DNA from: Clarkia xantiana subsp. parviflora
Taxonomy: Eukaryota > Streptophyta > Magnoliopsida > Myrtales > Onagraceae
NCBI GenBank assembly: GCA_036873135.1
Contig: JAPTYO010000011.1
Coordinates: 17,742,747 to 17,806,746, forward strand
Reading direction: 5' to 3'
DNA: 64,000 bases
Shown here in pieces: positions 25,145 through 53,840 of this stretch. The notes below the pieces were generated by a model. That model did not search any database, was not told the origin of the DNA, and saw only the letters and a program-made list of their open reading frames with translations. The position numbers and the translations under genes are program-made. Position 1 is the stretch's first letter. Each line of letters opens with the position of its first letter.

Positions 25145-25146
25145 CT

Positions 25147-25158
25147 TGGCGCCGTCTG
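25147..25158 (+). other. Primer-binding site of element 2
   Basis: TGGCGCCGTCTG two bases after the 5' LTR, shared with elements 1 and 3. Confidence 0.85.
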
Positions 25159-25182
25159 CGGATCACCCACAGAACCAACAGC

Positions 25183-26976
25183 ATGGCAAGCAACGAGCAG
25201 CCACCGCCGACTAAGACGAAAAGAAGAGGACCAGGACGTCCAAGGAAAACTCCGGCTCCGGAGTCAAGCATGAGATCTCCTCCGCAGAGAGACCCCCCGC
25301 AAAGCCAAGGCGAGGCCTCAGTCGCCTTGTCTATGCCAACAAGAAGCGTACACTCTCGGAGTAACGCGCAAGGGGGCACACAGCAAACCAACGCTCCTCC
25401 AGGCTTCGCCCACCAAACCTTCAACACGCAGGAGCAACCATACGGAATGCCAAACGCTGGAGCATACAACCAAGCACCAGGGGCACAGACTGCACCTACA
25501 GTCACCCCGGAAATGATGGCAGCACTCGAACAGCTGCTTCATCTAAGAGAGGCACTGCGCAACCAAGGATACGGGGCGCCACCACCCCCTCCCGCGCAAC
25601 AAGCAAATATGCCCCCGCCACCAAGGCAGGTGCCTCCAACGAACACACCTCAGCAGAGAGGCCCTACAATCTCAAAAACCCCCACCTTTCATGGGAATGC
25701 ACAGCAAAACAGGCAGTTCCCCCAACAAGGGACAAGACAGGAGCTCTCACACTCCCAAACACCCTACCAAGCAGGGCTATTCAATGAAGGAGCCTGGAGG
25801 CAGCCGTCTCAAACATTCCAGGGATATCAAGGTAGATATTCTCAGTACAACCCGACGCAGGCGCAATTTCCCCAACAAGGCGCAAGCATGGGACAAGAAG
25901 CATACCCCCCAAATCAGGGTAACCCAGTCACCGGGTTGACGGAGGAGATGCTTGAAAAGCTGATCGAAAAGAAGATAAAGCAAAGGAAGATGAGAGGGAT
26001 GAACACATTGGTGGACACCACATCCCACCCTTTCACTGACGAGCTGGTGTACAGTCGCGTCCCAGACGCACTGTATAATCTAAGACCAGAAAAGTACCGA
26101 GGCAAGGGAGATCCAATAGAGCATGTGCAGCAGCATGAAGTAATGCTTTTGGGAAGGACAGACAACCCTCACCACATAGCCATGACGTTCCCCCAAACGT
26201 TAGGTGGACCAGCCGCACACTGGCTCTTCTCCCTGCCAAAGAAAAGCATAGACTCGTGGCAGTCCCTCAAAGAAAAGTTCATCCAACGTTACATGGGAGA
26301 ACGTTCGATTATCAAAGGATCAAATGCCTTGGATGACGTCAAGCAAGAGTGGAATGAGTCCCTCGCAAGCTACTACATCCGATTCAATCAAAACATCTCG
26401 GAAATCCAAACGAACATCGCAGAGATAGAAATCATCCATGCCTTTGTCAGAAACCTGGGTAGGCACGGGTACGACTTAGGCCAAAAGCTTTCTACAAGAC
26501 CTGCGGAAACAATGGAAGAACTCGTGGCAAGAGTTAAAGAGTACATCGATGCCGAGCATTACAAGATGACAGCACGAGACAAGTGGGGTAAGCCCGGCAA
26601 CAAGAAAGATGAAAGCAAGCCAGGCCCCCCAAAGCAGAACCAAACCCCCCAACAAAAACAATGGACTCCGCCCCAGAAGAGAACATTCAACATTGAAGAA
26701 GACAAGAATCCAGACGTCAACACCATCGAGCTGATCCCTTTGAACGCTCCCCTGAGTGTCATACTGAAAGAAATGAAAGAGCAAAACCTCTGGAGAGAGC
26801 CATTCGGTTTCAGAAAGGGTCAGCTAGGGAAGGAGCAAGACAAGTGGTGTGAAAGCCACGAAGTCCACGGCCATGAAACAGACGACTGTAGAAGCCTTAA
26901 GTTCCAAATCAATCGAATCATACAAGAAGGCGGACTTAAGCACTACGTCGACCAGGGGGAAAGATTGAGAAGGTGA
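25183..26976 (+). CDS. Element 2 Gag
   Basis: 597 residues from the first ATG after the PBS. The N-terminus is basic, then Pro/Gln-rich and disordered (about residues 1-240). The Gag core (about 280-470) has YRGKGDPIEHVQQHE, AAHWLFSLPKKSIDSWQSLK, FIQRYMGER and ASYYIRFNQNI. A non-canonical zinc knuckle, WCESHEVHGHETDDC (about 555-570), is followed by KHYVDQG. The frame ends at TGA 26974-26976, where elements 1 and 3 continue into protease. One more G in the G5 run at 26955-26959 would join it to the next frame. Confidence 0.9.
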   Translation: MASNEQPPPTKTKRRGPGRPRKTPAPESSMRSPPQRDPPQSQGEASVALSMPTRSVHSRSNAQGGTQQTNAPPGFAHQTFNTQEQPYGMPNAGAYNQAPGAQTAPTVTPEMMAALEQLLHLREALRNQGYGAPPPPPAQQANMPPPPRQVPPTNTPQQRGPTISKTPTFHGNAQQNRQFPQQGTRQELSHSQTPYQAGLFNEGAWRQPSQTFQGYQGRYSQYNPTQAQFPQQGASMGQEAYPPNQGNPVTGLTEEMLEKLIEKKIKQRKMRGMNTLVDTTSHPFTDELVYSRVPDALYNLRPEKYRGKGDPIEHVQQHEVMLLGRTDNPHHIAMTFPQTLGGPAAHWLFSLPKKSIDSWQSLKEKFIQRYMGERSIIKGSNALDDVKQEWNESLASYYIRFNQNISEIQTNIAEIEIIHAFVRNLGRHGYDLGQKLSTRPAETMEELVARVKEYIDAEHYKMTARDKWGKPGNKKDESKPGPPKQNQTPQQKQWTPPQKRTFNIEEDKNPDVNTIELIPLNAPLSVILKEMKEQNLWREPFGFRKGQLGKEQDKWCESHEVHGHETDDCRSLKFQINRIIQEGGLKHYVDQGERLRR

Positions 26977-28358
26977 AAAGAAAATTCACGCCAAAGGAGA
27001 AAGCAAAAGAGAAAACCACTGACAACCCTCCTCCTAAAAAGAGGGGAGTTATTAATGTAATTCATGGTGGTCCAGCTGCAGGAGGACAAGTCTCCAACAC
27101 AAGAGATGTGTACGCTGCGCAGGCAAGCACACTCCCCAAGTATGGGAAAAGAAAGAAACCGGAAGAGGAGGACCCCGTGATAGGATTCTCGAGAAAAGAC
27201 ATGGCACACATCGTCTACCCACATGATGACGCGTTAGTAATAACGATGGAAATCAACGGTTTCGATGTCAAAAGAATTCTAGTCGACGGAGGAAGCTCGT
27301 CAGACATCCTCCATATCAACGTCCTCGAACAGCTGGGAATGAAAAGAGAGGACCTGAAGCCGGGAAATTTCCCGTTAGTAAGCTTTGCTGGAGCTGCTAC
27401 ATACCCACTGGGAATGATCACCCTTCCCACTGTGATAGGAGAGGGATGGAACACAATGAAAGTCGACATCACTTTCGTGATCGTCGAGAGCCTTGGCGCT
27501 TACAACGGAATTCTCGGAAGAACAACGATAAACCCCTACGAGATGGTGCCTTCAACGGCACATCAAAAGCTGAAATACCGCTTAAGGGGAGGAATTGGTG
27601 AAGTCTTGGGCGATCAGACAACAGCACGAAAATGCTATGTCAACGCCCTAAGATGCAAGAACCGCCTGGACATTGCAGTCATTGAAAGAGGACAGTGTTC
27701 CAAGTCTGAAGTCGAAAGGCGATTTGACGAGATGATGAGCAAAGGAGAAAGACTCCCAACACTTCAAACCCCAATGCTCCCAAGCATATGGGACATCAAA
27801 CAAGGAGAGTCAGAATCCATCCAAAACTACTTCAAGCGATTCGCTATTAACGCAACTTCAAGTTTGGCAGAAAAGTCAGCCGTGATCAATGCCTTTTTCC
27901 TGAACATGAACTCACCCACTTTTCTCCTATTTGGACGAACACAAGGGTGGAGAACAACCAAGTCTATGGCTGACTTAAAAGAGAAGATGAATACAGCAAT
28001 CGAAGTCGCAAACGAGCTGGGGTGGTTCAGCCCACCTGCAGAACAAGAGGAGGCGCGCGAACACAAGCGTGCAAGACAAGACTTGAACAACAACCAAGAT
28101 GGAGAATATACACCTCTAAACATAGAGGTGGAAGAATTGTTCAAGACCATCCTGAAGGATGTTTTACCTCCTCCAAGCGAGATCCGGATTGCCTTCCTTG
28201 GGAAGAATCCAGAAATGTGGTGCCACTATCACAACAAATGGGGTCACAGCACGAATGGCTGCCCCTCTCTTCGCAACAAAATCGAGGAACTGATCAAACA
28301 AGGAGCTCTGCGCTCCTACATTGCATGCAGGAAGCCAGCTTTATCAAACCGTCACTAA
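26973..28358 (+). CDS. Element 2 protease plus partial second Gag (Gag')
   Basis: About 460 residues with no obvious ATG at the start, so it is probably the continuation of Gag one frame over. It opens with a basic linker and KKRGVINVIHGGPAAGG, then the aspartic protease with LVDGGSSSDIL (about 27.28 kb) and AYNGILGRTTINPYE. Where reverse transcriptase should follow there is instead a second Gag-like segment: WDIKQGESESIQNYFKRFAI, VINAFFLNMNSPTF, MADLKEKMNTAIEV. A second knuckle, WCHYHNKWGHSTNGC, then IEELIKQGALRSYI closes it. Its order and spacing mirror the C-terminal half of Gag upstream. The frame is intact to its stop. Confidence 0.88.
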   Translation: MKRKFTPKEKAKEKTTDNPPPKKRGVINVIHGGPAAGGQVSNTRDVYAAQASTLPKYGKRKKPEEEDPVIGFSRKDMAHIVYPHDDALVITMEINGFDVKRILVDGGSSSDILHINVLEQLGMKREDLKPGNFPLVSFAGAATYPLGMITLPTVIGEGWNTMKVDITFVIVESLGAYNGILGRTTINPYEMVPSTAHQKLKYRLRGGIGEVLGDQTTARKCYVNALRCKNRLDIAVIERGQCSKSEVERRFDEMMSKGERLPTLQTPMLPSIWDIKQGESESIQNYFKRFAINATSSLAEKSAVINAFFLNMNSPTFLLFGRTQGWRTTKSMADLKEKMNTAIEVANELGWFSPPAEQEEAREHKRARQDLNNNQDGEYTPLNIEVEELFKTILKDVLPPPSEIRIAFLGKNPEMWCHYHNKWGHSTNGCPSLRNKIEELIKQGALRSYIACRKPALSNRH

Positions 28359-28722
28359 GGGAATAACCCTTCCCTTATGACATGCACATACTCTATCTTT
28401 ACTTCTCAAATGCTGAGTAGAACGTTTAGGATGGGAGATCAGTTGACTCCATCCATGCACATCCCTTGTAAATAAACAAGAAGACTAATGAAGTTCACTC
28501 CTTGCGTAGGAAAAATCACTATGTAATGGCAAGCTACCCCGGTCCAAAACCAGGAACAAGCCACATACATCACCAACAAAGGCCCTAACCCTATACGCAG
28601 AAAGGGCAACCAACAAGAAAAGCCATCAAAGTGATATCAAAGCAAGACTAAGCGAGGCTCATCACTACAAACCAAAACAAAGGACGTTTGACGCATACAA
28701 GGAGTTGAAGTATCCTCATCAA
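28359..28722. other. Spacer after Gag', element 2
   Basis: 364 bp without a reading frame or recognisable motif, leading into the hairpin array. Confidence 0.5.
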
Positions 28723-29669
28723 GGATGTGAACGTACTAATCTATTCACATCCTTGCAAAAAGTCGGGGGACAAGCGGATCATTGGGAATCCTCCCTCGCA
28801 AACAAATGCAAGTGTCGGACGTACTAATCTATCCACACTTCGCCACAATACAAGGATGTGAACGTACTAATCTATTCACATCCTTGCAAAAGTCGGGGGA
28901 CAAGCGGATCATGGGGAATCCTCCCTCGCAAACAAATGCAAGTGTCGGACGTACTAATCTATCCACACTTCGCCACAATACAAGGATGTGAACGTACTAA
29001 TCTATTCACATCCTTGCAAAAGTCGGGGGACAAGCGGATCATTGGGAATCCTCCCTCGCAAACAAATGCAAGTGTCGGACGTACTAATCTATCCACACTT
29101 CGCCACAATACAAGGATGTGAACGTACTAATCTATTCACATCCTTGCAAAAAGTCGGGGGACAAGCGGATCATGGGGAATCCTCCCTCGCAAACAAATAC
29201 AAGTGTCGGACGTACTAATCTATCCACACTTCGCCATAATACAAGGATGTGAACGTACTAATCTATTCACATCCTTGCAAAAAGTCGGGGGACAAGCGGA
29301 TCATGGGGAATCCTCCCTCGCAAACAAATGCAAGTGTCGGACGTACTAATCTATCCACACTTCGCCATAATACAAGGATGTAAACGTACTAATCTATTCA
29401 CATCCTTGCAAAAAGTCGAGGGACAAGCGGATCATGGGGAATCCTCCCTCGCAAACAAATGCAAGTGTCGGACGTACTAATCTATCCACACTTCGCCATA
29501 ATACAAGGATGTAAACGTACTAATCTATTCACATCCTTGCAAAAAGTCGGGGGACATACGAATCATTAGGAATCCTCCCTCGCAAACAAAGGCAAGGGTC
29601 GGACGTACTAATCTATCCACACTTAGCCGCAGCATCAAGTATGTGAACATACTAGTCTGTTCACATCCT
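28723..29669. repeat. 131-bp tandem array of paired hairpins with one shared loop, element 2
   Basis: Seven units begin at 28723, 28854, 28984, 29114, 29245, 29376 and 29507, plus a diverged eighth at 29638. Each unit has stem-loop A, GGATGTGAA / TTCACATCC, and stem-loop B, AAGTGTCGGA / TCCACACTT. Both enclose the same 12-nt loop CGTACTAATCTA. Reading frames through it are repeat translations. It sits between the ends of Gag' and the antisense gene. Confidence 0.92.
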
Positions 29670-30051
29670 CATAAAGAAAGACAACCACTTCAACAAGGAT
29701 CATCCTCCTTACAAAGCCACAGGCGACGGCAATACCAACTAATCCACACCCGTCACCAACAGAGATGCAATTTCCTAAGGAAAACCATCGGATTAAGGAA
29801 ATCGACCATTCAATAGAGAAACACTCTTACAAAAAGAGAACAAGTCACTGAGACAGCAATAAAGGAAGATGCAAAATAATACTAAGTATTATATCTTTCT
29901 AACATCTCATGTCAAGCATATATATATAAGATCAAACAGGTCTACGATAGCAAATCCAAACATCAAACGACAGGCAGGCTCTAAACAAGTCCTTCGCCAA
30001 AATACTACGCATGCAAAGGAACAAACAAACATACAAAGAGTCCATATTGAC
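29670..30051. other. Spacer between the hairpin array and the antisense gene, element 2
   Basis: About 380 bp, probably 3' UTR of the antisense gene. No other motif is seen. Confidence 0.5.
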
Positions 30052-32495
30052 CTAGTCAAGGAGATGGCGAACATCAACATCGCAATCCTCATTCGCAAAG
30101 GGATCACAGGCAGGAGTATCACCAAAGATATCAGCATCCCGCTCAAAGCTAAACATCGGCTCACCATCTGCACTAATGGTGTCCTCCACCTGAAGAGTGG
30201 AAGCCCCCCCCAAATCACTCAAACCAATCACACCAGGAGCATCCAATTTCTCAAAGGGAAAATGGGGGGCAAGACGATGCATTAGGGGAACGAAGTCATC
30301 AAGAAACTCCTTCTTCAAAGACTCATAACTCGCCTGAACGGCGGAAAGGAAAGGCTCACTCTGAGGATACCGCTTAAAAGCGCCGGCCTTGCCTTCCGAA
30401 ATGCCGTCCTCCCTCGCCTTTTGCAACTCGGCAGCTCGCACACCCTCCCGAAGGGCCATCCGACCTTTCACAGCAGACAGCTGATCTCGGATCTCGGCAA
30501 CGCGAGACTGACTCGAGGCAAGCGCTTCAGATAGTATGAGAAGCTCACCAGCATGGCCTTTCGCATCCTCAGTCAAAGAGACTTGCTCTTTAACCAGCTC
30601 CTCATGGCTCTCCAGAAGCTGATCCTTCTCATCAGATAACTCGATGACAAAAGATGATAAGTTGGCAATATCAGCATTAACCTGCATCAAAAATAGTATA
30701 ATCATCAAAACAAGTGCAACAATGAGCGAATCAACTCCAAGAGGAATAAACATTCACCGGAGCGAAGACCCCGATGTTCTCCTCCACAAAGGCGCGCGCA
30801 CTAGCAGAATTCGGGGGGCACTCCTTCCGATCGGCAGGAGGAACAGACCTCTGCACCACCCGAACGCCAACTTCAGGAATGCTCAAGGACGCATCCTTAG
30901 GAAAACGAAGGCGCGTACCCGAATAGGGCACCCACACACCATCTGTGACGTCGCGTTCAAAGCGACGAACAAGATCACTTCTGCGAAGCGAAGGAAGTGG
31001 AGGGATATCTGCAAAGCACAAACATAAGAAACCATACAAGCAAAATATGCTAAGTACATAAAAAGAGATTTCGCAAACCTGATACAGGGAGAATCTCCTC
31101 TGCCGCCACATGCATCGGCTCAGGGACAGGAGGGACGCGCTCACCAACATGCTTCCTCTTGTCACGTGAAGACATACGTGAACATGGGGGGACCTCGTCC
31201 GCCGTCCCATGCCTCGGCCCGGGGGCAGGAGGGACGCGCTCGGCAACTTGCTTCCTCTTATCACGAGAAGGCAAGACAGACGTCCCCTCAACTCTTGAGC
31301 GCTTGGGATCGCCCGAGGCACGCGCCGCAACATCGGTCCTCTTAGTGGAAGGACGCCGAGAAGAGTCAGTAACGGGTTCCGCCCGCTCCCTCTCAGTAGA
31401 CACATGACCTACAAACAGGGAAAAGAAAACATTGGAACTACAGACAGAATACAGCCGAAAACGATAAAAAGGAAGAAGTACTTTACCCATAGGTCCTTTT
31501 CCTCGCCCATGACGAGACCTGTCAGCAGGGGCCGGAGCAGCAACAGGGAGCCCTCGCGCAGCATCAGTCTGCAAGGCCGGCTGCTTGTTAAGAAACCAAC
31601 CTACAGGATAACATAAAACAAGGTTATAAAAATTCGAAAGCATACCAAGACACCCTGGGAAGAAGATACGACGATGCCTGCGGTAAGCAACTCCTCTTCA
31701 GAACCCTGAGTCAAAGGGACTATAACCCCCGCCTGATTGTCGCGAAAGATCTCCCGAAAGGCCTTCTCATCCTGAGGGGTATACTCGGATAAGGAAGGAA
31801 CAGGGTCACGCTCCAGAACATGACACGTCTCCCACTTAGTCCCGACGTCGCTCACAAAGAAATAATGACTTTTGCCATTCCTGCGAGCGAGGATAAGGGG
31901 TGGCAAACCGCCCGCTCGGCTTCCACTTGGCGCCCCCAAGGTCAAATGAGGAAAGGCAAGGCCACCGACTGCAGAAGGTGGACAACCGCGATTTGTCTCG
32001 TCGCTCCAGACGGTAGAAGGTCCGAAAGAGAATCAAGGAATAAGCCCATGAATGCTTGTGACACTGAATGCGAAAACAGGTCCACGCGTGAAGAGCAGCA
32101 GGGGAGAGATTAAGGGGCGAGATACGGAAGTGACGACACAAACGGACAAGATCCTTGCAGTAAGGAAAACGCAAACCCTCCTCTATCTGTCCCGTGTAAA
32201 CTACATCTAAGTCCGCAGGAGGGACGGTAACTGAGCCAACCTCGACATCTTTGCATACGTCAAACGGGAAGAATGCTTCAGTAAGAGGACAGACCCCTGA
32301 CTTATCTACGCTCTCCACAAACTCCTCCGTCGTGATACGATTGGGAGGATAGGTCTGAGTCATCGCAATGGCTTCAAGGCTAGCACCTGTCCCGGGAAAA
32401 TCGAGTCGAAGTAAAAGGGGGGTGTCCTCGCTTATCTCCAAACCATCATAAGAAAAGTAATATGTGCAAAGAAAGGGATCGGGAGACTCACTCAT
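30052..32495 (-). CDS. Antisense ORF of element 2 (Transposase_28-like domain, coiled coil)
   Basis: Begins MSESPDPFLC (ATG at 32495). The first exon carries the shared block EEGLRFPYCKDLVRLCRHFR, ISPLNLSPAALHAW, SLILFRTFYRLERR and, after a one-base frame change near 31865, KSHYFFVSDVGTKWET. Candidate GT-AG introns follow, each starting GTATGC-, GTAAAG- or GTTTGC-like. They join a Pro/Arg-rich middle (DKRKQVAERVPPAP, repeated), a DIPPLPSLRRSDLV exon with EVGVRVVQRSVPPADR, and a final coiled-coil exon (VIELSDEKDQLLESHEELVK) ending DVRHLLD. Similarity to element 3 extends from the N-terminal block to the end (APHFPFEKLD / DPQFPFGDLGD). Function unknown. Confidence 0.65.
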
Positions 32496-32499
32496 TTCA

Positions 32500-34364
32500 G
32501 CAGTTCAGGAGTGACAGTTTCTGAGAAAATTTCTAAGTATCAAAGTCGGGCGCCTGCAAGCCCGTCAACCAAGCCCTGCAAAAACCATGCACAACTCAAT
32601 CAAAAACCAAGGCAACACATCAACCACACTCATCAAAGTCCTTTGCAAGGACATTCAGCCCAACGGACCAACTGTCCGCATACAAACAGCTAGGGACCCT
32701 CCCGCTCGGGAGTCAAAAATCCTTACGCTCATCAAAGGCCTAGGCCACCTACTAATCAAATTTTCATACATTTGTGCAATGTGACACAGGTATTCAAGCG
32801 CTCTACAAAGCGACAAGTTCAAGAGCTAAAGAAATCAAAGGCATACAAAGTTGGTCATAATTACCAAAATGCCATCCGACCACCTTTTGATCAAATTTTA
32901 TCCTCAAAATGGCTCAAGGCTCCGGGGACACATACAAGCAGTTCAAATGCACTCAAGCAAGCCCATTACATGCTACGGAGAGACTTACCCCTCCCCGAAC
33001 AACCCGAAGAACACTCGGGTCAACTAAGCCACTAATGAAGGCAAACTACCAAGCAATCACCTAAGCTCCGGGGGCATGGCTATCCACTCACAAACAATCA
33101 AGGGGGCATTACCAAATTAGGGGACATCATTTCAAGTCACCCGTATCAAGATACAAAGGGTCGGGCTTTTCGCTTGAAAAAGTCCGATTTCGAACCTCCG
33201 CGATTCCCCCTCGGTTGGTCGGAACCTAGGGACCTCTTCACAAAGGGAGTTCGCTATCCTTAACTCTATCTATCTACACTTAGAGCTTAGCCAAAAGCAA
33301 ATTTTGAAAATTAAGCCAAAGTTTCACTTAGGCATTTCATCAAACACCTACCATGCACCTTATTGTAATTCAAATGTGCAGCCCTAAAGGTCTAATTAAC
33401 CTCAAGAAAAGGGAGTGGAGGACGTTACCAATCGATGCTCGACAAAAAGGACTCGAAACCGGATCGAATCGAGCTCGAAAACAACCCGCAAGAGGTGCAG
33501 CCGCCGCCCGCTGCAGCCGCCGGACCCGCCGCTGCCGCCGCCGCCTCGCCGCCGCTGCGCCGCCCTGACCTCGCCGGTGGTGCTACTGGTGGTGGCCGGC
33601 CGAAATGGGGTCTCACTAACACCCTAGAGTGAATTCTTAAAATCCCTACCTTAGCTCCTCCAAAACTCTCACCACAACCAATTCAAAAGTTGATAGTTTT
33701 ATAAACTATCATGGAGGAGGTGGACTACACAACATAGTAAGTACCATACATCAAAGAGGTACATTCCTATCCACCATTCATTTTTTAAATTGTTGATGGC
33801 TTGGGTTTTAACCATCAAATGACTTGGATAAATTTAACTAAGTCATTTCAAATGTCCTCAACTTTTTGAAAACGTTGTGTTTATGATTTTTCGTATTACG
33901 TTCGTTGCATGTGATTTTCCCAAAACCCGGCCTTATTTCATTCACCCAAAACCGTCGTCTCGCCGTCAAGACGGCCGTCTCGGACGACGGGCTCCCGGAA
34001 ACTATTGCACTGCATGAAAAGCATATTATCAAGACTTGCATGATTTATTATCATTTTGATACATTTAGTCGTGGCATGAACGTTCCGTATTTATTTGTTC
34101 ATCGTACAAGCCCGAAAGATTTCATGTGCGCTCGCACCTTAATTCTCCAAACGATCACATTTATCATATTACTCGTAGTCCGTTGTGCTACTAACCCTTT
34201 GTGCAGTTACCAAGCATGACCATCTCAAAAAACTAAGGCAAGGAACTCGTCTGAGCCGCGCGCATCCACCCTTGGTAGGTCAAAACTCAAGGTGAGCAGA
34301 CGGCCCGAATCACGCATATACCCTATCTTAGAATAGAGTTAAACAAAGGTCAAGCCATTATTTA
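32500..34364 (-). promoter_or_regulatory. Leader and putative promoter of the element 2 antisense gene
   Basis: About 1.9 kb without convincing coding sequence. 33490-33605 is a GC-rich (GCC)n-like block containing GGCCGGCC. Upstream on the minus strand, near 33700, is TTTATAAAC within a dyad (GATAGTTT / AAACTATC). Element 3 has a similar GC-rich block with GGCCGGCC and an upstream AT-rich TATA-like site. I infer an internal promoter for the antisense gene; transcription is not shown. Confidence 0.4.
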
Positions 34365-34377
34365 ACTAGGGGGCAAG
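34365..34377 (+). other. Polypurine tract of element 2
   Basis: ACTAGGGGGCAAG directly before the TGATGG start of the 3' LTR. Confidence 0.8.
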
Positions 34378-35149
34378 TGATGGACATACGCGTGATTCGG
34401 GCTCGGTTTTAATTATTCGAACCTCATACACGCGCGAAACCCGATTGCAGGCTAACCGGGGGAAACCGGGCAAGTTTCGAACTTGCCCGGCATCCCCGGG
34501 AGGCTTACCCGGAATTCCGGGTAAGCCTAGGCTTACTCGGAATTCCGGGTAAGCTCGACACCCGGGGGGTGTCGCGTACACCCCCCATTTAGTCCCGGAC
34601 GTATAGGAGACCCGATCTTTAACTAACTCCTATGTGTCCGAGACCTAAGTTTCAGAGGCGCGCGCGTCCCGCTCAGGACAGCCGCTTGAGACGCGCGTCA
34701 GAGACCATTTCCCAAAGCTCTCCCATGCATCCCGGTTCACATTTCCATATTGAACCGGGTCAAAACCGGTTTACGGTCCAAGGTTGCCTATAAATAGCCA
34801 CCTTGGGGGTAAACATTTTCAAGTCAATTCAGAAATCACTTTGGGCGAGAATGGGAAAAGCTCTGACCTCTCTCTAGAAAACCCTCTCTTTCTCTCTCTA
34901 GAAGTCGACTAATGTTGATCGTCGGAGTGAGCACACCAAGCACCCCCCCTTCTCCATGGGGACTGCTTGGTAACGCTCCTTTCGTAGGTACTGACGGACG
35001 ATTTTCCAGAGAGCCCAAAGGATTCACCACCATCCAGAAGACGAAGTTAGGGCCCGCTCGTGACTTCAGAGGACGGACTTAATTCGCATTCAACCCGAAG
35101 ACTTCGACGGGCTATTCCGCGGGCAACCCGCGATAACCCGGTCGAAACA
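34378..35149 (+). repeat. Element 2 3' LTR (772 bp)
   Basis: Same termini as the 5' LTR but with a shortened palindrome array (34502-34560). TATA box at 34789-34796. Its minus strand supplies a chimeric tail to the interrupted MULE transposase frame. Confidence 0.92.
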
Positions 35150-37554
35150 CATCTTTTGTTCTTGAACCATTTGGGAACAAAATCTTTAAGACGACGATTC
35201 GAATGACCGATGGCTGCAATGGCGTGACAACACGGGTAATGAAATAGTCTCCATCTGCCGCAGTCACAGTCCCTATCAGTCATGTTGACCGTGTAGTTTT
35301 CATCATGTTCTGCAGCCGAAACATAGTACTTCACGCCCTGCAAAAAAGTTACAGTTCTGCAAAACCTCGCATCTTCCTTAGCCTTCTCTATCAACACTGT
35401 AATTTTCGGAGAATACGTTTTCCTTGCCAAAACAGCTTCCTTTGCAACGTTCTTCCGGTCAACCCAATATTTGACCATCTTCGAGAACGTCTCAGTGACT
35501 AATGCAGTCACCGGTAACATGCGAGCATCTTTTAGGACCTTGTTGAAACACTCTGAATGATTTGTTGTCATTACACCATACCTTGAGCCGTCATCGAAGG
35601 CTAATGACCAAACATCGAAGTCACCACAACGGTCTATGAAAGGTTTATACTTCTGATCATCTGCAACCAACCACATATCAACCTCTTTCTGGAACCTCTC
35701 CCTGTTCACCTCATAAATCATGCTCGAGAATTTCTTTTTCAGCTGTTTATTCTTGAAATGAGTATTAAAGTTGCTCGCAAGATGTCGGGCACAAGACCTG
35801 TGTGAGTGATTTGGCTCCGGATAAACCTCTGCTAGAGCACGCAATATACCGATGTGACGGTCAGAAATGATGTAGACATGACGGTTCTTAGTGATATGCT
35901 CATTTACATGGGACAAAAACCATGTCCACGTTGCAATGCTCTCCTTGTCACATAACAGAATGCCAACGGGAAAACTTGATTGTCAGCATCGTATCCAACG
36001 GCAACCAACAATTTTCCTGTGTACTTTCCATACAGATGTGTGCCGTCGACGCTGATCAACGGTCGACAGTGCCGAAACCCGTGAATTGAAGGAGCGTAAG
36101 CCCAGAAGCATTTATCGAACGTCGCAGTTTCCCCAATAACGGAGTTTTTGTACTGAAAATCGAATATGGATCCAGGATTGTAATGCGCCACAGCCAGTAA
36201 ATGTTGTGGAAGTAGCCCGAATGAAGATACATGACTACCGAACAGTCGTTCAATGACTAAACATTTCGCGTACCACATCTTACGATAAGATGGATACTCT
36301 TTATACACGGAACCTTTAATCTTATTCTGCAAATCTTTTATCGTCACGCTGAGGTTATCTTTCACATGACGGTAAATCTGTCGTTGAATCATCGAAGCCA
36401 AGGTTTCTGTGATGCACGATTGGCTCAATATTAACACATGTGTGTATAGGCCCAACTTTCCTAATCGTCCACTTACCGAACCACCCTGATGTTGCACGAA
36501 GATTCCACGAACAACTTTCATCTGCGCATTTAAACAGAATTTCAATTTTGATTGATCTTGGGGTCTTACATTGTCGGGAATTCGCGATGTGCCATTCTTT
36601 AACATACATCTGCAGCGCTTCCTTGTTAGGATATTTGTCTTCCTTCTGGAAATACTTTTCCGCGTTGTTTGACGTCCTCGCAGCATGTATTTCCCAGTTG
36701 TCGCACTCTAGCCCTTGTTGCCATTCCCCCTCCACCCACTGTTCTGGGAACTCGTAGTCTCCCTCCTCATTTTCCCCCTCCTCATTTTCCCCCTCCGACC
36801 ACTGATCTATGAACTCGTAGTCTCTCACCCGGTTCTCCCGGTTCACCAACTCTTCGAATGGCTCTGCTCCAGAGTCGGATGAATACCGCTCATCCCTCTC
36901 TACAACCTCCGGTAGGGTCGCATCACCTTCATCCGCATTAGCATTGCTACATTCACCTTCATCCGCATTAGCATTGCTGCTCTCCCCTTCACTATTGCCT
37001 CCACGTATCCTTAAAACTTTCATCTGATATGTGACGTCCAGTTCTGGTATGAGAACCAGTTCAATTTGCTCGATGCCTAACGACAAAATGGACTCCCAAT
37101 AACTTTGAGAGCCGACTGTGTTCATTTCTCCATCGAACATCCAAAATAATTTAACATTTCGTGCTCGACATCGGGTCATGCTCTTAGCTACAAATATGAC
37201 ATCATCAAGTGTAATGTCTCTATCACCATCGTATCGAAACCACTCATCATCGTATCGAAACCATAGGGTCACCATATTTTCCTACATGATTATTATTACA
37301 TAATGTATTAGCACATCACTACATACATACTTACAATATATACATATTGGCAATACTAAATCTAAATCTTGTACCAGGCAATACTATTTTCTGTCATCAT
37401 TGATATAACTATGTACAACTAACTAAAATATGAACTGCAAATCAGATATATTACCTTAGTATAGATTGGTACAGCAATTGATGGACTGATTTTTCAACTC
37501 TTCAACAACAATAATAAAATATGCTGCCAAATGCGGCAAAAGGGAAAATTTCCG

Positions 37555-37745: not shown

Positions 37746-37829
37746 CATTGGTTATTTTGAGTTTTGGACGAAAATTTCCCTTGTTTTTGTGTTTGAGTTT
37801 CAAATACTGGTTATTTGGGTGATTTTTCC
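37722..37829 (-). repeat. MULE right terminal inverted repeat
   Basis: Reverse complement of 20537-20644, followed by TSD copy GCGATTGTA at 37830-37838. Confidence 0.92.
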
Positions 37830-37838
37830 GCGATTGTA

Positions 37839-39889: not shown

Positions 39890-40000
39890 TAATATATTAG
39901 TTGCCTTGCTCTTGTTAACCCGTGCTTATCTTTATTAAGCACAACTTCCTAATCTGGAAAGAAATGTACAACAATCAAGTTATTTTAGTATAAAATAAAG

Positions 40001-40528
40001 GGGTTAACAAGTCTTTTGGTCCATGATGTTTGACAACTTTTGGGTTTTGGTCAATGATGTTTTTTTTTTACCTAGTTTTGATACCATATGTTTGCAGATT
40101 TTTTCTAGTTTTGGTCTAACCGTTACATTCCGTCCATTTTTTGACATGTTCAAGTCACGTAATCCACTCTAAACTTTAAATTTAGTCCCTCTAATACTTT
40201 CTTAACCTTTTTTTTGTTCAATTTAGTCCCGAAGATTCAAAATTGACCCCAATTGGACAATATGTCCCATTGAATTTTTGAAACTTCGGGACTAAATTGA
40301 ACAAAAAAAAAAGGTTAGGAAAGTATTAGAGGGACTAAATTGAACAAAATTGAAAGTTTAGGGTGGATCACGTGACTTGTACATGTCAAAAAATGGACGG
40401 AATGTAACGGTCAGACCAAAACTAGAAAAAATCTGCAAACATATGGTACCAAAACTAGGAAAAAAAAAACATCATTGACCAAAACCCAAAAATAGTCAAA
40501 CATCATGGACCAAAAGACCTGTTAACCC
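40001..40528. mobile_element. GGGTTAACA-ended foldback MITE, 528 bp, near-complete palindrome
   Basis: Left half GGGTTAACAAGTCTTTTGG... is mirrored almost to the centre by the right half ending CCAAAAGACCTGTTAACCC. The TSD TAAAATAAAG is 10 bp (39991-40000 and 40529-40538). The 9-10 bp TSD and long arms suggest a Mutator-derived MITE. Fragments resembling it occur near 4700-4830 and 43000-43130. Confidence 0.8.
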
Positions 40529-41368
40529 TAAAATAAAGTGATGAATGAAGGGAAACTTTTGAGTATGAAAAACACATGTGGAGAAAACACATAAGCTAGG
40601 GTTCCAAAGACTATTAGTAGTCCAAAAGGCCTAACTGGTTGCACTTGCACAATATGTACATGAAGTCTCATGTAAACACACCAAGAGGTCAAGGAAAATG
40701 TAGGTTCGTTATTGCAGCCATTGAGAATGAAGGTTGGTTATTGCAGCCATTGAGAATGAAACCATGGAGTAGATTGACCAGGTTTAAAAAAAACATACTA
40801 AAGCTCTAAATCTAAATACAAAAGCAAGTTGTAGTAATTGCTCTATGTTGGAGGCAACTAAATAAATAAGATTTAGAGATAGAAACTCTGGAACACATTA
40901 TCAAATCCAAAGAATTTTCTTATGCAAATAATAACTCATTCATTCATTATCATCTCAAACCGGACCATTAACACCCAAGGGATTAGAAAATATAATCAGT
41001 TCAGTCAGCAACATCTTTCTGAACTTCAGAAGTAGTATTGCTCGCTTGCCGCACGAAACAAATCACCATGCATGCATATCCAGAGAGAGAGAGAGAGAGA
41101 TGACTGACCTAAGATTCAGAATGACCTCAAAAGGCTACCAAAAACCGATCTCGCCTCTTTGACAAATAGATTAACTGATCCAGACAGTTGAGATGAAATC
41201 AGAATGAGATCGGCCTATAGCTGGAACTAAACAGACTGATTATCGTTCTACAACTAAGAAACAAATAGATGAAGAAATTGTGATCAAGAGTGTGACTGCA
41301 GGAGAAAGGAAGAAAGCTTACTCTTTAGCTGGAGAGATAGGGTTTTGTAAATTCGTACCTGAGCAATT
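40529..41368. other. AT-rich intergenic sequence
   Basis: No gene or element termini identified. A (GA)n tract is at 41083-41100, and a short direct repeat 'ggttattgcagccattgagaa' type duplication is near 40710-40760. Confidence 0.4.
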
Positions 41369-41454
41369 TGTCGAAGCATAAAGACTAAACCATATCTTCA
41401 CCTAAAACCTTAAGGTGATAGGTGAAGATATGGTTTAGTCTTTATACTTCAACA
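41369..41454. repeat. Long hairpin (26-bp perfect arms) at an LTR-like end
   Basis: Arms 41378-41403 and 41420-41445 are perfectly complementary (AGGTGAAGATATGGTTTAGT...). They extend outward to TGTCGAAG / CTTCAACA with two mismatches, around a 16-nt loop. Confidence 0.85.
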
Positions 41455-41717
41455 TTCCCCCTCACGTGTGGCCTAAAACATTTTGAAGGTCCAACACGTG
41501 AAACTTTAAATATGGGGTTAAACTCGGCGCTGCGGAGATTCGAACCTGCGTACTCTGATACCATGATAAGATTTAGGTATGAAATTGAGAGTTTAATACT
41601 TGTTAATATCATTACAAATATGAGAGTTACATATATACATGTACTTCTATCTTCCTATAGAAGTATTCTAATAAGGCAAGTAATACATTATATATGGTAT
41701 ATATCCTATATTCCATA
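41369..41717 (-). mobile_element. TRIM-like retroelement remnant
   Basis: On the minus strand TGGTATCAGAGTA (initiator-tRNA-Met-type PBS, about 41555-41567) is followed after only about 100 bp by a GTGAGGGGGAA polypurine tract and a TGTTGAAG start. Upstream of the PBS, TGTTATGG...ATCTTATCA could be a 5' LTR. The two putative LTRs are not clearly alike, so this may be a rearranged or composite remnant. Confidence 0.5.
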
Positions 41718-41929
41718 ACACAATTGAACGTAGATCTGCGCATAACTTTGAAAAAAGGTCCGCAATTGAACAAAGGTCCGCCACAGAAATAAGGGATTCA
41801 AAAGCAGCTCTTTGAAAGGAACAATGCATGAGAGGAAAATCTGTGAGTAGCCACAAAGGAAATGAACGAACGCAAAAGATGACTTCAGAATAATTTTATT
41901 CATGATTTATTATTAAAACTAGGTGTTGA

Positions 41930-43135
41930 CTCCGTGCTACCCGCGGGACGACATGCTAAATTGTCATTTAAAACTTAAAATTGGAGATAAACTTGAATAA
42001 TGAGAAATAACAAAGAAAAAAATTAGGAATCATACAATAAGATACAATATATTGCTAGATAAGATAAATATAGTTCACTAATAAGAGTAATCATATGTCA
42101 CTTCTCATAGGTTATGAAAGAATGTTAACATAAGCATAACCATTTTATGAATAAGTAGGGAGGATAACTACGGATGAATATAATAATCTGTATGATTTTG
42201 ACAATGAGAAATGAATGTGACAATTGTTTCCCCAAGAATTAGAGTAGGTTCTTTAATGATCTGAACGCATATATGGTGATACATTCGACCTTAGTAAAAA
42301 GGGGTTGAAGAAGACTTGAATTGAAACCAGACAATGTTACAGCAGCTTAGTATCCCTTCGCATTCGCCTTGGTGGAAGCAAGGATGCAAACACTAGAAAT
42401 TTTTCGGTTGAATGTGATAGTATTCTCTCTTTTCATGGATGTTGGCGTTAAACCCGCATCGGATCTTAAGAATGAAAGGTCAACATGGAAAGGATGTATA
42501 TGGTTCTGATATTGACAGGACTCAATAACCTTGAGACTAATCAAGTACAGTAACCACAACAGTGAAAGGGAGACCTTATCTGCTCACCATAGTGAGTTCG
42601 AAAGAAGTGAATCATGATCCGCATAGAAAGAAGAGAACTGGACCGAATAATTCCTATACGATAATCCGGTGGATTAAACCCCGTTGATAAAGTGCGTCTC
42701 AAATACGCCTAGTAGGTCATGTGTATGAAGCTGTAAAATGTTTTATACGGACACAGATCATTTGAAGTGATTCACTCGTGAATTTACTTAGATGAGATGT
42801 TCAACATGACTCAAAGTTCTTGACTATATGCGCGACAATCATGGATCAGATATTCGAAAAGTTATGCGGTTTCAAAAACAATTCGTCCAAAAAGATGAAG
42901 AAATGAGTGAGATATTAGGTTCCAAAGTTTTGAGTTGCTATTATGTAGATATTATGCAAAAAGGGTATTTTGGTCTTTTCATGCGCCAAAAATGGGATTC
43001 TGTTAGTTTTAACCAAAATTCTAACGGTGCAACACCCAGAATAACTCGGGTACCAAAAAGTAACAAAATTTAGTGGAGGTACCAATTCATTTTGGGCTGT
43101 TAACCCAGGTACCAATTTGGTTTAAATCCCAATTT
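41930..43135 (+). other. Decayed copia internal sequence (plus orientation)
   Basis: 42310-42830 matches, with inversion, 59780-60340 in the copia at 44197-63401 (for example the stretch around GAAGCTGTAAAATGTTTTATA). No intact reading frame. 42990-43135 resembles part of a MITE (AACCAAAATTCTAACGG...GTTAACCCAGGTACC). Confidence 0.6.
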
Positions 43136-43905
43136 AATAATGAAATGTTTAAATCCCATTACTCCTCCTATAAATAAGAGGTGTTAAGGGATTTTTAGGG
43201 TTAATCACAATTCCCTCACAAGAGTGTTTTAGAGAGAAAAACCCTCAACCCCACACCCTGATAGTTCGGCCGAATCATATCCCTCACCAATGGTGTGCCA
43301 AATTGCCTTCGAGCAACCTCTCCAGAGATCTATCCCCGTGCCAAGAATCGATCAGAGGCTTTGCTGTGGAGCTTGCACCACGTAGGGCTTCTCTAACAAG
43401 AACCTCTACGGGTCCCGACCGGAGGATCGTGAACTCCCTCCTGAAAAGATCTTGGGTCTACGGATCACCTTAAAGGTATGTATGAAACTTCCGCTGCGTA
43501 ATTCCAATTACTAGCATGTACAAAGTTCACTTTACCCTACCTAGGGTTTCGGCCAGCCTATGTATTTGGGGAGGCCCAATTTTGGGCCTCCAATGTCAAT
43601 TGGGAATTGGGTATTGCCCAATTACCCTAATGTGACATTTACCCAAGTTCATTAGGTAAACTATACATATTATGGGCTACCAATTACGGGGCCCATTACC
43701 ATATGCTTACAGAGACTATACCGCGTAGAGCTTCCTTAACAAGAACCTCTACGGGTTCCATCCGGTGGATCGATAAATCCCTCAGCAAGATCTTGGGACT
43801 ACGAAAAGCGATTAAGGTATGTGCACATCTTCCGCTGCGTAATTGTGATTACTATAGCACGTACCGTATTTAAGTTTCCGTAGTATTTAGCCCCGTAATC
43901 CAACA
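43136..43905 (+). repeat. Mosaic copia LTR with an internal inverted segment
   Basis: About 43136-43518 matches the family LTR in plus orientation (TATA box CTATAAATAAG, leader, CGCTGCGTAATTC). About 43519-43711 matches the LTR start in minus orientation, ending ATATGCTTACA. About 43712-43905 matches the LTR end again in plus orientation, ending CCCCGTAATCCAACA. It is followed by a PBS, so it acts as the 5' LTR side of the outer copia copy. Confidence 0.7.
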
Positions 43906-43906
43906 G

Positions 43907-43918
43907 TGGTATCAGAGT
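43907..43918 (+). other. Copia primer-binding site (outer copy)
   Basis: TGGTATCAGAGT one base after the LTR end CAACA, complementary to initiator tRNA-Met, usual for copia elements. Confidence 0.85.
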
Positions 43919-44196
43919 CTGTTTTAGGAGGTCATGATTTTGATAAATTGATGTTCTTGATTTTAACATGTTGGCCGAAATTTGAAGTAATGAAAATTTC
44001 AAATTTCTGATTTTTATAATTGTTGGTGTCGAAAACTTCATGATGTTCTTAGTAAAATTCGATGTTCATGATTTTCAAGAAAAATGTGACATTTATCAAA
44101 ATCAAATATTGGATTGTAGATCTTAGTAAAATTTGATCTTGAAATTTGACCACTTGTTTCCAATTACATGTTTCGACCGAACCCTATTGAAATTAC

Positions 44197-44334
44197 TGTT
44201 AGATTACGGGGAGTAATCACTACGGATTCTAAAACAAGGTACATGCTAGTAATCAGAATTACACAGCGGAAGATTCACACATACCTTCCGGATGATCCGT
44301 AGACCCAAGATATTCTCTAGAGGGAGTTCACGAT
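44197..44334 (-). repeat. Copia 3' LTR, left part (interrupted)
   Basis: TGTTAGATTACGGGG... in plus reading, matching the start of 62798-63401. It continues at 54876-55283 after element 3. It lacks about 58 bp present in the right LTR (two deletions, one covering the TATA box). Confidence 0.88.
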
Positions 44335-45190
44335 TGATGGATATACGCCCAATTTGAACCCGTTGACTTCCGAACCGTTGTATTTTTATCGTCCCATTTA
44401 TGATTGCAAATCGAAACTTCAACCCGGACACTTCGCGAGAGCATTGACGGCTCGGACGGGGCCGAAGCGCCCGTCCGGCAGAGACGAACTCACCTAGGTG
44501 AGGTTGGGTGGCCACACCCGACCTCCCCTAGGGGAGATCGGGTCAGCCGACCCGATCTCCCCTAGGGGAGATCGGGTGGACCAACCCGATCTCTCCTAGG
44601 AGAGATCGGGTCGGCCAACCCGATCCCTCCTAGGAGGGATGGGGTTGGCCAACCCCACCCTCCCTAGGAGGGGTTGGGTGCCCTCACCCAACCCCTACCC
44701 TTGGAGGTCGGATTTCTCCCCCCCCAAGGGCCCCGACACCACCTTCGGACTCCCCTGCTCGGTCCACTCCGCCTACCTCCTCCGAATCCTAAGGTCTTAA
44801 TTATGTGCTTAAAGGTTAATTAATTGTGTTTAAAGGCTAACGATGTCATTAAGCCACCTTAATGACACCATTGCCTATAAATACCCCACCTTCACAACTC
44901 ATTTGATCATCTTGGCCATTTGGACATTTTAGCTCTGACATCTCTCTAGCTTTATCTCTCTAGAAAAATACTGACTTAGGCATCGGAGAGGGTTCACCAG
45001 GCACCACCCCCCCCCTCCGTGTCTGGTATTGCCCCTTCTGCAGGGTAAAAGGAGAGAAGAAACAAAGGAAGGAAGGAAAGAAGAAGATAAGCTAAGGCAG
45101 AGCAGCTCAGGAACATCGGACCACACACATCCCCCGTAAGGAGTGAGATCAAAGCCGACCCCCCGTTGACCTAGATCTCATAACTTAACA
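44335..45190 (+). repeat. Element 3 5' LTR (856 bp)
   Basis: TGATGGATATACGCC to CTTAACA. TATAAATA at 44877-44884. 44515-44700 carries a short array of perfect palindromes such as ACCCGATCTCTCCT joined to its own reverse complement. Confidence 0.93.
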
Positions 45191-45192
45191 CT

Positions 45193-45204
45193 TGGCGCCG
45201 TCTG
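45193..45204 (+). other. Primer-binding site of element 3
   Basis: TGGCGCCGTCTG two bases after the LTR, as in element 2. Confidence 0.85.
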
Positions 45205-45241
45205 AGGGCTTCGAACAGAAAGCCTGGCTATTACACGAGCT

Positions 45242-48200
45242 ATGACGAACAGTAGGGTGTCCAGGCCCCAACACCCACCCGGGGGCAATGGGCGGAGAAG
45301 AGAACCCATACCCCCAGGGAGGCGGCCTAACCCTGGGAAGCAGCCAATGCATCCAGAGCCACAAGAGACACCACAACCTCCTCAGCAACAGAACAACCAG
45401 GAGGGAGGACCTTCACGCCCAGCTGGGGCTGAGTCCTCCACAGCCTCCACCCCCCGGGCAAGAAGGCCACAGAGAGAAAGAGAACAACAGGGAGTGCCTT
45501 CCCACAACACGGCACCCCCTGAGGGATACTATTATGAAGAGCAACCCCAAGGGTACCCGTATGGGATGCCAGCACAGAGAGGTGGCAACCGCGCCCACAC
45601 AGCATATGCAAGGCAGGCATACACCCAAGGGACTTACACTGAAGCTCATGGAGAGGAGCAGATCCCAACAGAAGAGCATTACTCGCACCCTCGAGCAGGG
45701 CAGCGAGAGGAGCAAAGAAGATATTACCAGGAGCCACCCCCAGAGGGAAGGCAACAATTCGTGCCTCCTAGGCAACAGCAGAACAACAGGGCTTACACCC
45801 CGCTTAGGGAGGAAAGACAAGCAAGACCTCCAAGGAGGCAGGACTTCTATGAAGCACCCCAGCAGGCGTATCAAGAGTACACCTACAGTCCATACCAGCA
45901 GGGACAAGGGAACCCAGTAGGCCCAGTCTACAACTACAATGGATATCAGAGGGATTATACTCCGGCACAGGTGATGATCACCCCGGAGGAGATAGAAGCC
46001 ATGATAACCCGGAAATTGAATGAGTCAAAGAAACCCAGCCTGCATTGTCTAAGTGACAAGACGAACCACCCTTTCACAAGGGAGCTGGAGATGAACAGGG
46101 TGCCAGACTCCCTGCACACTGTGCAAATTGCAAAGTACAATGGGAAGGGAGACCCCCTAGAGCATATCCAACAGCATGAGGCCTCTCTATTCGGGAGGAC
46201 AACTGATGAAAGATACAAGGCACTCCTTTTCCCAAACACCCTATCAGGGGTGGCCTCACATTGGTTCTTCAGCCTGCCCTCTGAGAGCATCCACTCATGG
46301 GAGCAGCTAAAAGCTAAGTTTCTGCAGAGATACCTAGGGGAGAGGAAACTCCTCAAGGGAACAGGCTCCATTGACGACGTAAAACAAGAATACGATGAAT
46401 CCCTGGCCAGCTACTATACTAGGTTCAACCAGAATATTGCAGACATCCAGGGGGACATCACTGAAGGGGAGATAATCCGAGCCTTTATCAGAAACTTAGG
46501 TCGCTTTGGGTCAACATTGGCTGAAAAGATGGCCAAAAAGCCAGCAAGCACCTTGGAGGAGCTTGCAGGGAGAGTTAAAACACATATTGACCTTGAGAGG
46601 CACAGGGCAAGCAAGAAGGCCAAAATTCAGGCAGCCAAGGAGGATACTCAAAGGCCAAACAAAGGAAAGCCACCCCAGGCACCACAGCATGCAAGGCAGC
46701 AGGAATGGCGTCCGCCACAGCAAAGAAACCAAATGGGTGAACCCTTAAAGGCTAGAGAAATAAACGTCATCAAGTTCATCCCACTAAACGCCACTCCAGC
46801 CACCGTACTTAGAGAGATGCGGAACCAAAAGCTTTGGTCACCCCCTGCAAGGTGGAGAGCCCCAATGGTAGGAAATCACAAGGATAGATGGTGTGACAAC
46901 CATGAGGCTTATGGTCACGACACAAATGAATGCTTTAGCCTAAAGCTAAGCATAAACAACATCGTCCAGAGGGGAGAACTGAAGCAATTCGTAGACCATG
47001 GGGGCAACAGTATGCAACTAGGGCCATCACAGAAGGACAAGGACAAGGGCAAGGGAAAGATAGACTACAACCCTCCACCCAATAAAAGAGGAGTCATAAA
47101 TATGATACATGGGGGAGTAGCATCGGGTGGCCCAACTGCTAACGCAAGAGAGGTCTATGCATCCAAGCTAAGCTCAGTGCCAAGGTGGAGAAAAAGGCCA
47201 AGAGAAGGAGAAGAAGTGAAGATCGAGTTCTCGGAGAAGGACAAGAGCCACATCGTCTTTCCACATGACGATGCTCTAGTTATTACTTTAGATATTGACA
47301 ATTTTGATGTAAAGAGAATTTTGGTGGATGGGGGCAGCTCAGCTGACCTCCTAAGCCTGAGAGTGTTGGAAGAGATAGGGAAAACCAAAGCAGACATCAA
47401 ACCGGTCAACTTCCCTCTAGTTGGCTTCTCAGGGGCAACAAGTTACCCCCTGGGAATGATAACCCTACCAGTGACCATGGGCCAAGGATGGACCCAGCTG
47501 AAGGTAAATGTCAATTTCTTGGTGGTTGAAACCCTGGGAGCCTACAATGGGATCCTAGGAAGGACAACCATAAACCCATATGAAATAGTGCCATCCACTG
47601 TTCACCAGAAGTTGAAGTATATCACGGAGAACGGGGTTGGAGAGGTCCTGGGTGATCAACGCACCGCAAGGCAATGCTACGTCAACTCAATGAGACGTGG
47701 ATCACACGGGACAGATACAGTGGCTGTAGTCATGGTAGGGGCCAACCAGGACAGAATAAGGAGGGGAAGGAGACAAAGGCAAAGAAGGAGGAGGAGTGGA
47801 GTGACACTCCGTTTGAGCAGGCAGTTTTTTCAAACAGTGCCTACAAGGGGACACAGGAGCAAGGCTGTGAAGGTGACATCCATACCTTGGCAGCCAGACA
47901 CCATAATAGGGAACAGGACAAGGAACTCCATCCTAAAAGGCTTCCGCTACATAGATGATATCAAGCAAATGCCACAGGAGTCTATATCAAGCTATTTCCA
48001 GAGATTCTTTGATTATGGTGCCAACATGGACATCACAAGGGGAGAAGCAGTAAGGGCATTTATTAGGAACATGCATCCAAGCTCATTCGAGGCCTATGGA
48101 GGACTCTATGAGATGGTCATGACGAGCACAATGAGAGAGCTCAAGGCGAAGCTGGACAGGGCATTTGAACAAGAGGCGGAACAGTTGGATGAAGTTCCAG

Positions 48201-48496
48201 AAAGAGGAAGAGAAACAGACACATTGGGAGGAGGTGTCAATTTCACATTCACACCCCTTACACTCAGCATAGAAGAAATTTTCCACAAGCACCTCAAGCA
48301 AGAGCTACCAACATGCAGGGAGGAAGGCAAGGCCTTCCTAGGAAGAGATGCACAGGGTTGTTGTGAATACCACGGGACCTGGGGGCATCAAACCAATGAC
48401 TGCATGGTGTTGAAGGTGGAAGTGGAAGAAATAATTTACAATGGAGGCTTCAAGGAGTACGTGGCAACAGACACAATGGCCACCCCATATCCTTAG
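45242..48496 (+). CDS. Element 3 Gag-protease-Gag' polyprotein (intact)
   Basis: 1084 residues from the first ATG after the PBS, with no stop. A Pro/Gln/Arg-rich N-terminus (1-240) precedes the Gag core (about 290-450: YNGKGDPLEHIQQHE, ASHWFFSLPSESIHSWEQLK, FLQRYLGERK, ASYYTRFNQNI). Knuckle WCDNHEAYGHDTNEC lies at about 550, then KRGVINMIHGG. Protease has LVDGGSSADLL (about 697) and AYNGILGRTTINPYE. Next are a basic stretch (RRGRRQRQRRRR), the second Gag segment (about 900-985: YIDDIKQMPQESISSYFQRF, EAVRAFIRNMHPSSFEAYGG, MRELKAKLDRAFEQE) and knuckle CCEYHGTWGHQTNDC (about 1040). The domains match element 2. Autonomous Tat elements would have reverse transcriptase here. It is likely a particle-forming protein that depends on a partner's pol. 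Confidence 0.93.
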   Translation: MTNSRVSRPQHPPGGNGRRREPIPPGRRPNPGKQPMHPEPQETPQPPQQQNNQEGGPSRPAGAESSTASTPRARRPQREREQQGVPSHNTAPPEGYYYEEQPQGYPYGMPAQRGGNRAHTAYARQAYTQGTYTEAHGEEQIPTEEHYSHPRAGQREEQRRYYQEPPPEGRQQFVPPRQQQNNRAYTPLREERQARPPRRQDFYEAPQQAYQEYTYSPYQQGQGNPVGPVYNYNGYQRDYTPAQVMITPEEIEAMITRKLNESKKPSLHCLSDKTNHPFTRELEMNRVPDSLHTVQIAKYNGKGDPLEHIQQHEASLFGRTTDERYKALLFPNTLSGVASHWFFSLPSESIHSWEQLKAKFLQRYLGERKLLKGTGSIDDVKQEYDESLASYYTRFNQNIADIQGDITEGEIIRAFIRNLGRFGSTLAEKMAKKPASTLEELAGRVKTHIDLERHRASKKAKIQAAKEDTQRPNKGKPPQAPQHARQQEWRPPQQRNQMGEPLKAREINVIKFIPLNATPATVLREMRNQKLWSPPARWRAPMVGNHKDRWCDNHEAYGHDTNECFSLKLSINNIVQRGELKQFVDHGGNSMQLGPSQKDKDKGKGKIDYNPPPNKRGVINMIHGGVASGGPTANAREVYASKLSSVPRWRKRPREGEEVKIEFSEKDKSHIVFPHDDALVITLDIDNFDVKRILVDGGSSADLLSLRVLEEIGKTKADIKPVNFPLVGFSGATSYPLGMITLPVTMGQGWTQLKVNVNFLVVETLGAYNGILGRTTINPYEIVPSTVHQKLKYITENGVGEVLGDQRTARQCYVNSMRRGSHGTDTVAVVMVGANQDRIRRGRRQRQRRRRSGVTLRLSRQFFQTVPTRGHRSKAVKVTSIPWQPDTIIGNRTRNSILKGFRYIDDIKQMPQESISSYFQRFFDYGANMDITRGEAVRAFIRNMHPSSFEAYGGLYEMVMTSTMRELKAKLDRAFEQEAEQLDEVPERGRETDTLGGGVNFTFTPLTLSIEEIFHKHLKQELPTCREEGKAFLGRDAQGCCEYHGTWGHQTNDCMVLKVEVEEIIYNGGFKEYVATDTMATPYP

Positions 48497-53828: not shown

Positions 53829-53840
53829 CTCGGGGGCATG
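53829..53840 (+). other. Polypurine tract of element 3
   Basis: ACTCGGGGGCATG-type purine-rich run directly before the TGATGG start of the 3' LTR. Confidence 0.8.

Follow-up and report, generated by a model that had tools for sequence, protein, structure and literature searches.

How does a long terminal repeat (LTR) retrotransposon that carries no pol come to encode, behind its protease, what appears to be a second piece of Gag? This question is raised by a 64,000-nucleotide stretch of DNA from Clarkia xantiana subsp. parviflora (assembly GCA_036873135.1, contig JAPTYO010000011.1, forward-strand positions 17,742,747 to 17,806,746), referred to here as the window, to which all coordinates below refer. 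The window is repeat-rich DNA and contains three complete LTR retrotransposons, elements 1, 2, and 3. For elements 2 and 3, an initial annotation had proposed that the protease is followed not by reverse transcriptase (RT) but by a second, partial Gag with its own zinc knuckle. We call the two Gag segments Gag1 and Gag2. Elements 2 and 3 are each represented by one copy, within the window, and two copies in total carry the Gag2 layout, so the term families, used in the initial annotation, is provisional for them.

Results

Elements 2 and 3 share the same order of parts, namely Gag1, protease, Gag2, stop codon, tandem repeats, antisense open reading frames (ORFs), and 3' LTR. In element 3, the coding part forms one intact frame of 1,084 codons (45242-48496, plus strand), as initially annotated. 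The encoded polyprotein of 1,084 residues contains the C-terminal half of Gag1, which is the counterpart of Gag2 (residues 359-584, 46316-46993; profile match), an aspartic protease with a DGGSS motif (residues 617-817, 47090-47692; profile and motif), and Gag2 itself (residues 896-1074, 47927-48463; profile stretches with E = 1.9e-6 and 2.1e-15). The second zinc knuckle, CEYHGTWGHQTNDC, lies at 48362-48403. In element 2, a 597-residue Gag1 ORF with capsid and knuckle (25183-26976, plus strand; PF03732, E = 7.2e-14) is followed in a different frame by a protease-Gag2 ORF (26973-28358, plus strand). The latter contains the aspartic protease (27045-27650; residues 25-226, matched by a profile that includes this sequence) and Gag2, which resembles a capsid C-terminal domain (CTD) plus nucleocapsid (27783-28322; residues 271-450, E = 8.8e-24), with its knuckle, CHYHNKWGHSTNGC, at 28221-28262. 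Matches of the element 2 protease to PF13975 (E = 0.016) and of its Gag2 to PF19317 (E = 0.0019) are below cut-off. The two frames of element 2 are offset and overlap at 26940-26976, for which decay and a programmed frameshift are both possible explanations; a two-ORF gag/pol arrangement is described for 41% of clusters in the Retand lineage (PMC11963269).

Element 1 (5417-16436, minus strand; target-site duplication [TSD] TCGAG), which encodes Gag, protease, RT, RNase H, and integrase in a coding region split over two ORFs, provides a reference for this layout. When used as a query, its gag finds two matches in each of elements 2 and 3, one on either side of the protease, while its protease finds a single match per element at E < 1e-60, with 47.9% identity to that of element 2 (E = 1.7e-67) and 57.4% to that of element 3 (E = 1.1e-72). 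Its RT/RNase H and integrase pieces match nothing in either element at an E below 0.14. Both elements thus lack detectable RT, RNase H, or integrase, the domains that mark an autonomous Ty3/gypsy element.

Comparison of Gag2 with Gag1 reveals clear homology. By blastp, Gag2 matches the first Gag with E = 5.5e-18 in element 3 and E = 3.8e-13 in element 2, so that absence of Gag similarity, which would have undone the annotation, is not what is found. A profile of first Gags, built from 38 sequences (the three window Gags and 35 from relatives), scores the two Gag2s at 91.1 and 74.4 bits, compared with a maximum of 9.0 bits among 2000 letter shuffles. The second knuckles of both elements have the same C-x2-H-x4-H-x4-C pattern as the first Gags, and the capsid signature positions are likewise intact in both Gag2s. 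The weak PF03732 matches of Gag2 begin at profile position 53 of 97, whereas those of Gag1 begin at position 2-3. From these comparisons, Gag2 is a homologue of Gag that matches the capsid CTD and the nucleocapsid knuckle without the capsid N-terminal domain (NTD). The proposal that it mirrors the C-terminal half of the first Gag is therefore borne out, as is the broader one of a duplicated-Gag, pol-less design.

The two Gag2s are also each other's closest relatives. Each is closer by blastp to the other (E = 2.7e-33, 34.8% identity across 181 columns) than to any of the three Gag1s of the window, and they form a clade with support of 98-99 under two models. Together with the Gag1s of elements 1-3 they constitute a clade (99) separate from the 35 other Gags, in a tree for which the program flags long branches. 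An origin of Gag2 inside the line of elements 2 and 3 and an earlier origin were compared with the approximately unbiased (AU) test, which gave p 0.46. Because the Gag2s group as sisters, the layout likely arose once. As judged from these two copies, the alternative that the elements are independent deletions of RT-bearing copies is unlikely, since the Gag2s are sisters and both follow the protease, by linkers that differ in length.

The two elements have diverged extensively. At E ≤ 0.001, blastn finds a single match between them, of 629 columns around the protease, and the proportion of synonymous differences, pS, is saturated at 0.77-0.86 (custom script). The nonsynonymous proportion, pN, is 0.46 for Gag2, 0.34 for Gag1, and 0.21 for the protease, which for Gag2 corresponds to a pN/pS of 0.60 (95% interval 0.49-0.73). 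Both Gag2 frames are open, and none of 5000 base shuffles of each Gag2 stretch is free of stops. Saturated synonymous sites together with limited protein change argue that Gag2 has been selected as a protein. By these measures it is kept as a protein, though less tightly than Gag1, while most of the element DNA has diverged past recognition.

To place the layout among known proteins, we collected 80 relatives from two protein searches, picked by likeness to protease-Gag2 and limited by length; 68 carry plant names and 12 are unnamed. All 80 match the protease profile. The C-terminal part of Gag stands before the protease in 64 of the 80 and after it in none. Where at least 150 residues follow the protease, 36 of 38 relatives have RT/RNase H there; P0012 and P0064, the two exceptions, are listed with integrase domains. 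The literature was searched for a Gag-protease-second Gag layout, and no earlier description was found. The published Retand survey began from RT domains, which places elements without RT outside its reach (PMC11963269). A half-Gag after the protease, in the slot of pol, thus appears to be undescribed, and its absence elsewhere extends as far as these relatives and surveys. As separate observations on the relatives, P0001 (Cuscuta campestris, 711 residues) seems by eye to contain three tandem protease-type domains, and P0049 (838 residues, JGI), a Gag-protease protein, has a near-exact internal repeat over the knuckle and the start of the protease, which is either a recent tandem duplication or an assembly artefact.

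Elements 2 and 3 have the features of complete LTR retrotransposons, including an LTR pair, a TSD, and sites resembling a primer-binding site (PBS) and a polypurine tract (PPT). Element 2 (24286-35149, plus strand) is bounded by LTRs of 859 bp (24286-25144) and 772 bp (34378-35149), with the TSD CATCT at 24281-24285 and 35150-35154. Element 3 (44335-54870, plus strand) is bounded by LTRs of 856 bp (44335-45190) and 1030 bp (53841-54870), with the TSD ACGAT at 44330-44334 and 54871-54875. All four LTRs were delimited by LTR alignment and lie on the plus strand. The interval first annotated, 25183-48496, holds the Gag1-protease-Gag2 ORFs of both elements and omits the 5' LTR of element 2 and all of element 3 past its ORF. 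In the LTR pairs, 769 of 773 aligned bases are identical in element 2 (2 gaps, 87 bases in total) and 855 of 856 in element 3 (3 gaps, 174 bases in total), and the gaps coincide with repeat tracts inside the LTRs. Because the pairs are near-identical, the insertions are young; both elements inserted recently. The LTR repeats are tandem and partly inverted, with units of 34 bp and about 29 bp (44485-44670 and 53991-54346 in element 3; 24411-24549 in the 5' LTR of element 2). In element 3 they number 5.5 copies in one LTR and 10.5 in the other, the remainder being almost identical.

Terminal motifs and noncoding features suggest that elements 2 and 3 are kin to element 1 and to the Retand lineage; lacking RT, they stand outside RT phylogeny. 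All three elements share the LTR start TGATGG, the PPT-like GGGGGCA, and the PBS-like TTGGCGCCGTCTG, which in elements 2 and 3 forms a putative PBS, from position and likeness, at 25146-25158 and 45192-45204, respectively (plus strand). Retand elements have an antisense PF04195 (TRP28) ORF ahead of the 3' LTR, and non-autonomous clusters exist among them (PMC11963269). At the same position and on the same strand as described there, element 2 has an antisense ORF matching PF04195 (Transposase_28; 31836-32495, minus strand; E = 6.2e-6, 26.8 bits, cut-off 26.2), and element 3 has one with a PF04195-like region (51287-52270, minus strand; E = 1.7e-5, 25.4 bits, just under the cut-off of 26.2); element 1 scores 19.8 bits, below the same cut-off. 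Beside these lies a second antisense ORF, of 233 residues in element 2 (30052-30753, minus strand) and at 49971-50570 (minus strand) in element 3; neither has a Pfam match above cut-off, the best being DUF948 in element 2 (E = 2.3e-4). After Gag2, and thus before the 3' LTR, a repeat search finds 7.3 copies of a 131-bp unit in element 2 (28720-29669) and 11.6 copies of a 49-bp unit in element 3 (48753-49319). Tandem repeats follow the coding region in about half of the Retand clusters, with units of 8-100 bp, a range that the element 2 unit exceeds, whereas LTR and internal lengths are within the published range (PMC11963269). A further difference is that Table 1 of this RT-based survey records no second Gag (PMC11963269).

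Discussion

Several known systems resemble elements 2 and 3 in part. The wheat elements RLG_Sabrina_SA and RLG_WHAM are LTR elements with Gag and protease, no RT or integrase, and a presumed complete partner (PMC9744471). Elements 2 and 3 have this same semi-autonomous Gag-Pro content; compared by description only, the wheat elements differ in that no second Gag is reported in the portion of the account used. RLG_Quinta, the partner of RLG_Cereba, similarly lacks RT and integrase, encodes Gag with an extra domain, and has PBS, PPT, and LTR ends in common with the element proposed to help it, as elements 2 and 3 share motifs with element 1. However, it is described as centromeric and as encoding only Gag and DUF1, a domain of unassigned function (PMC11302176). 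TR-GAG elements are non-autonomous and encode Gag, and one is reported to transpose in Arabidopsis ddm1 (PMC8704663). In these, a single Gag ORF is the sole coding domain, whereas elements 2 and 3 have a protease and Gag2 besides (PMC8704663). A parallel in domain content is Ty1 p22/p18 of yeast, a C-terminal Gag piece that has the capsid CTD but lacks the NTD; it co-assembles partly with Gag and blocks transposition. It arises from an internal transcript of the same gag, in contrast to Gag2, a separate, diverged copy after the protease (PMC8458377, PMC4599808).

The mobility of LTR elements requires pol functions, provided either by the element itself or by a helper. Because elements 2 and 3 are young yet without pol, they were presumably moved by a helper. 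We tentatively favor, as a reading that is plausible though far from secure, that these pol-less elements depend on a helper and that their Gag2 co-assembles in particles shared with a complete relative, where it helps to package the RNA of the element that encodes it. The initial annotation had suggested that a second Gag might alter particle assembly or parasitize the particles of a partner. A related complete element would supply RT and integrase, and the element's own predicted protease would free Gag2 from the polyprotein. Gag2 would then enter particles via capsid-CTD contacts with Gag1 or the helper Gag, and its predicted RNA-binding knuckle would bind the element's own RNA and bring it into mixed particles. 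Co-assembly and RNA binding are suggested by the make-up of Gag2, a capsid contact domain joined to such a knuckle. Packaging is preferred over pure inhibition because selection most easily keeps a helper-dependent gene that favors the RNA encoding it.

Several findings weigh against this reading. Constraint on Gag2 is weaker than on the matching part of Gag1 (pN/pS 0.60 versus 0.39, interval 0.31-0.48), and selection on Gag2 could have acted in an ancestor before its loss of pol. The coding region of element 2 is in two frames, Gag1 in one and protease-Gag2 in the other. The element 3 Gag2 region finds no match at E ≤ 0.001 among 1777 candidate database proteins of 596-1897 residues, and no match in the protease-Gag2 searches spans more than 54% of the query. 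Finally, beyond the shared LTR start, blastn finds no match of at least 150 bases between the LTRs of element 1 and the LTRs of the other two elements, so that element 1 is a candidate for the helper type only.

The strongest rival to the packaging reading, though one we consider rather unlikely, is that Gag2 is an interference factor like Ty1 p22, co-assembling to poison or limit the particles of complete rivals or to control copy number. The domain make-up of Gag2 matches that of p22/p18 as described for Ty1 (CTD, no NTD, a nucleic acid chaperone region, partial co-assembly; PMC8458377, PMC4599808), and the late start of its PF03732 match reflects the missing NTD region that Gag1 retains. 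However, p22 comes from an internal transcript of gag itself rather than from a long-diverged copy, and in element 3 a single frame encodes Gag2 and Gag1 in a 1:1 ratio. Moreover, we reason that crippling a helper hurts the element that depends on it, and that an inhibitor acting in trans does little for its own copy. A more specific form, in which a dedicated, protease-linked half-Gag acts in trans on assembly to attack or restrain complete relatives, as a plant analogue of Ty1 p22 that evolved independently, is similarly doubtful. If true, such a protein would have persisted until synonymous sites were saturated and would have escaped notice since surveys seek RT.

Another reading, which we regard as improbable, is that Gag2 has no role at present and is a passenger, neutral or in decay, that came to lie behind the protease as pol was lost, possibly through template switching. 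Its faster evolution relative to Gag1 and protease and the split coding region of element 2 would fit such a passenger, but open frames in both elements that no shuffle reproduces, and 34% protein identity with intact knuckle and capsid signature positions despite saturated synonymous sites, would not. About as improbable is that the elements serve as extra suppliers of Gag and protease, Gag2 being simply a second RNA-binding knuckle on the polyprotein; RLG_Sabrina_SA and RLG_WHAM offer precedents that code Gag-Pro without RT or integrase (PMC9744471), but the kept signature positions in the capsid CTD part of Gag2 would then be unexplained.

The roles of the proteins that pol-less elements encode for themselves are largely open, and Gag2 offers a concrete protein with which to ask by what means these elements gain entry to the particles of a helper, skew them, or block them. 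Pol-less elements are described as abundant in plants, wheat being one example (PMC9744471), and RT-based surveys would miss a whole group of the Gag2 type.

Other features of the window

Frame-split ORFs for a MULE/MuDR-like transposase with a SWIM zinc finger (35047-37275, minus strand) adjoin the 3' end of element 2. Two pairs of inverted repeats flank the element 3 region, at 43159-43520/62841-63202 (91%) and 42159-42847/59811-60485 (84%), and may belong to a larger or nested DNA element.
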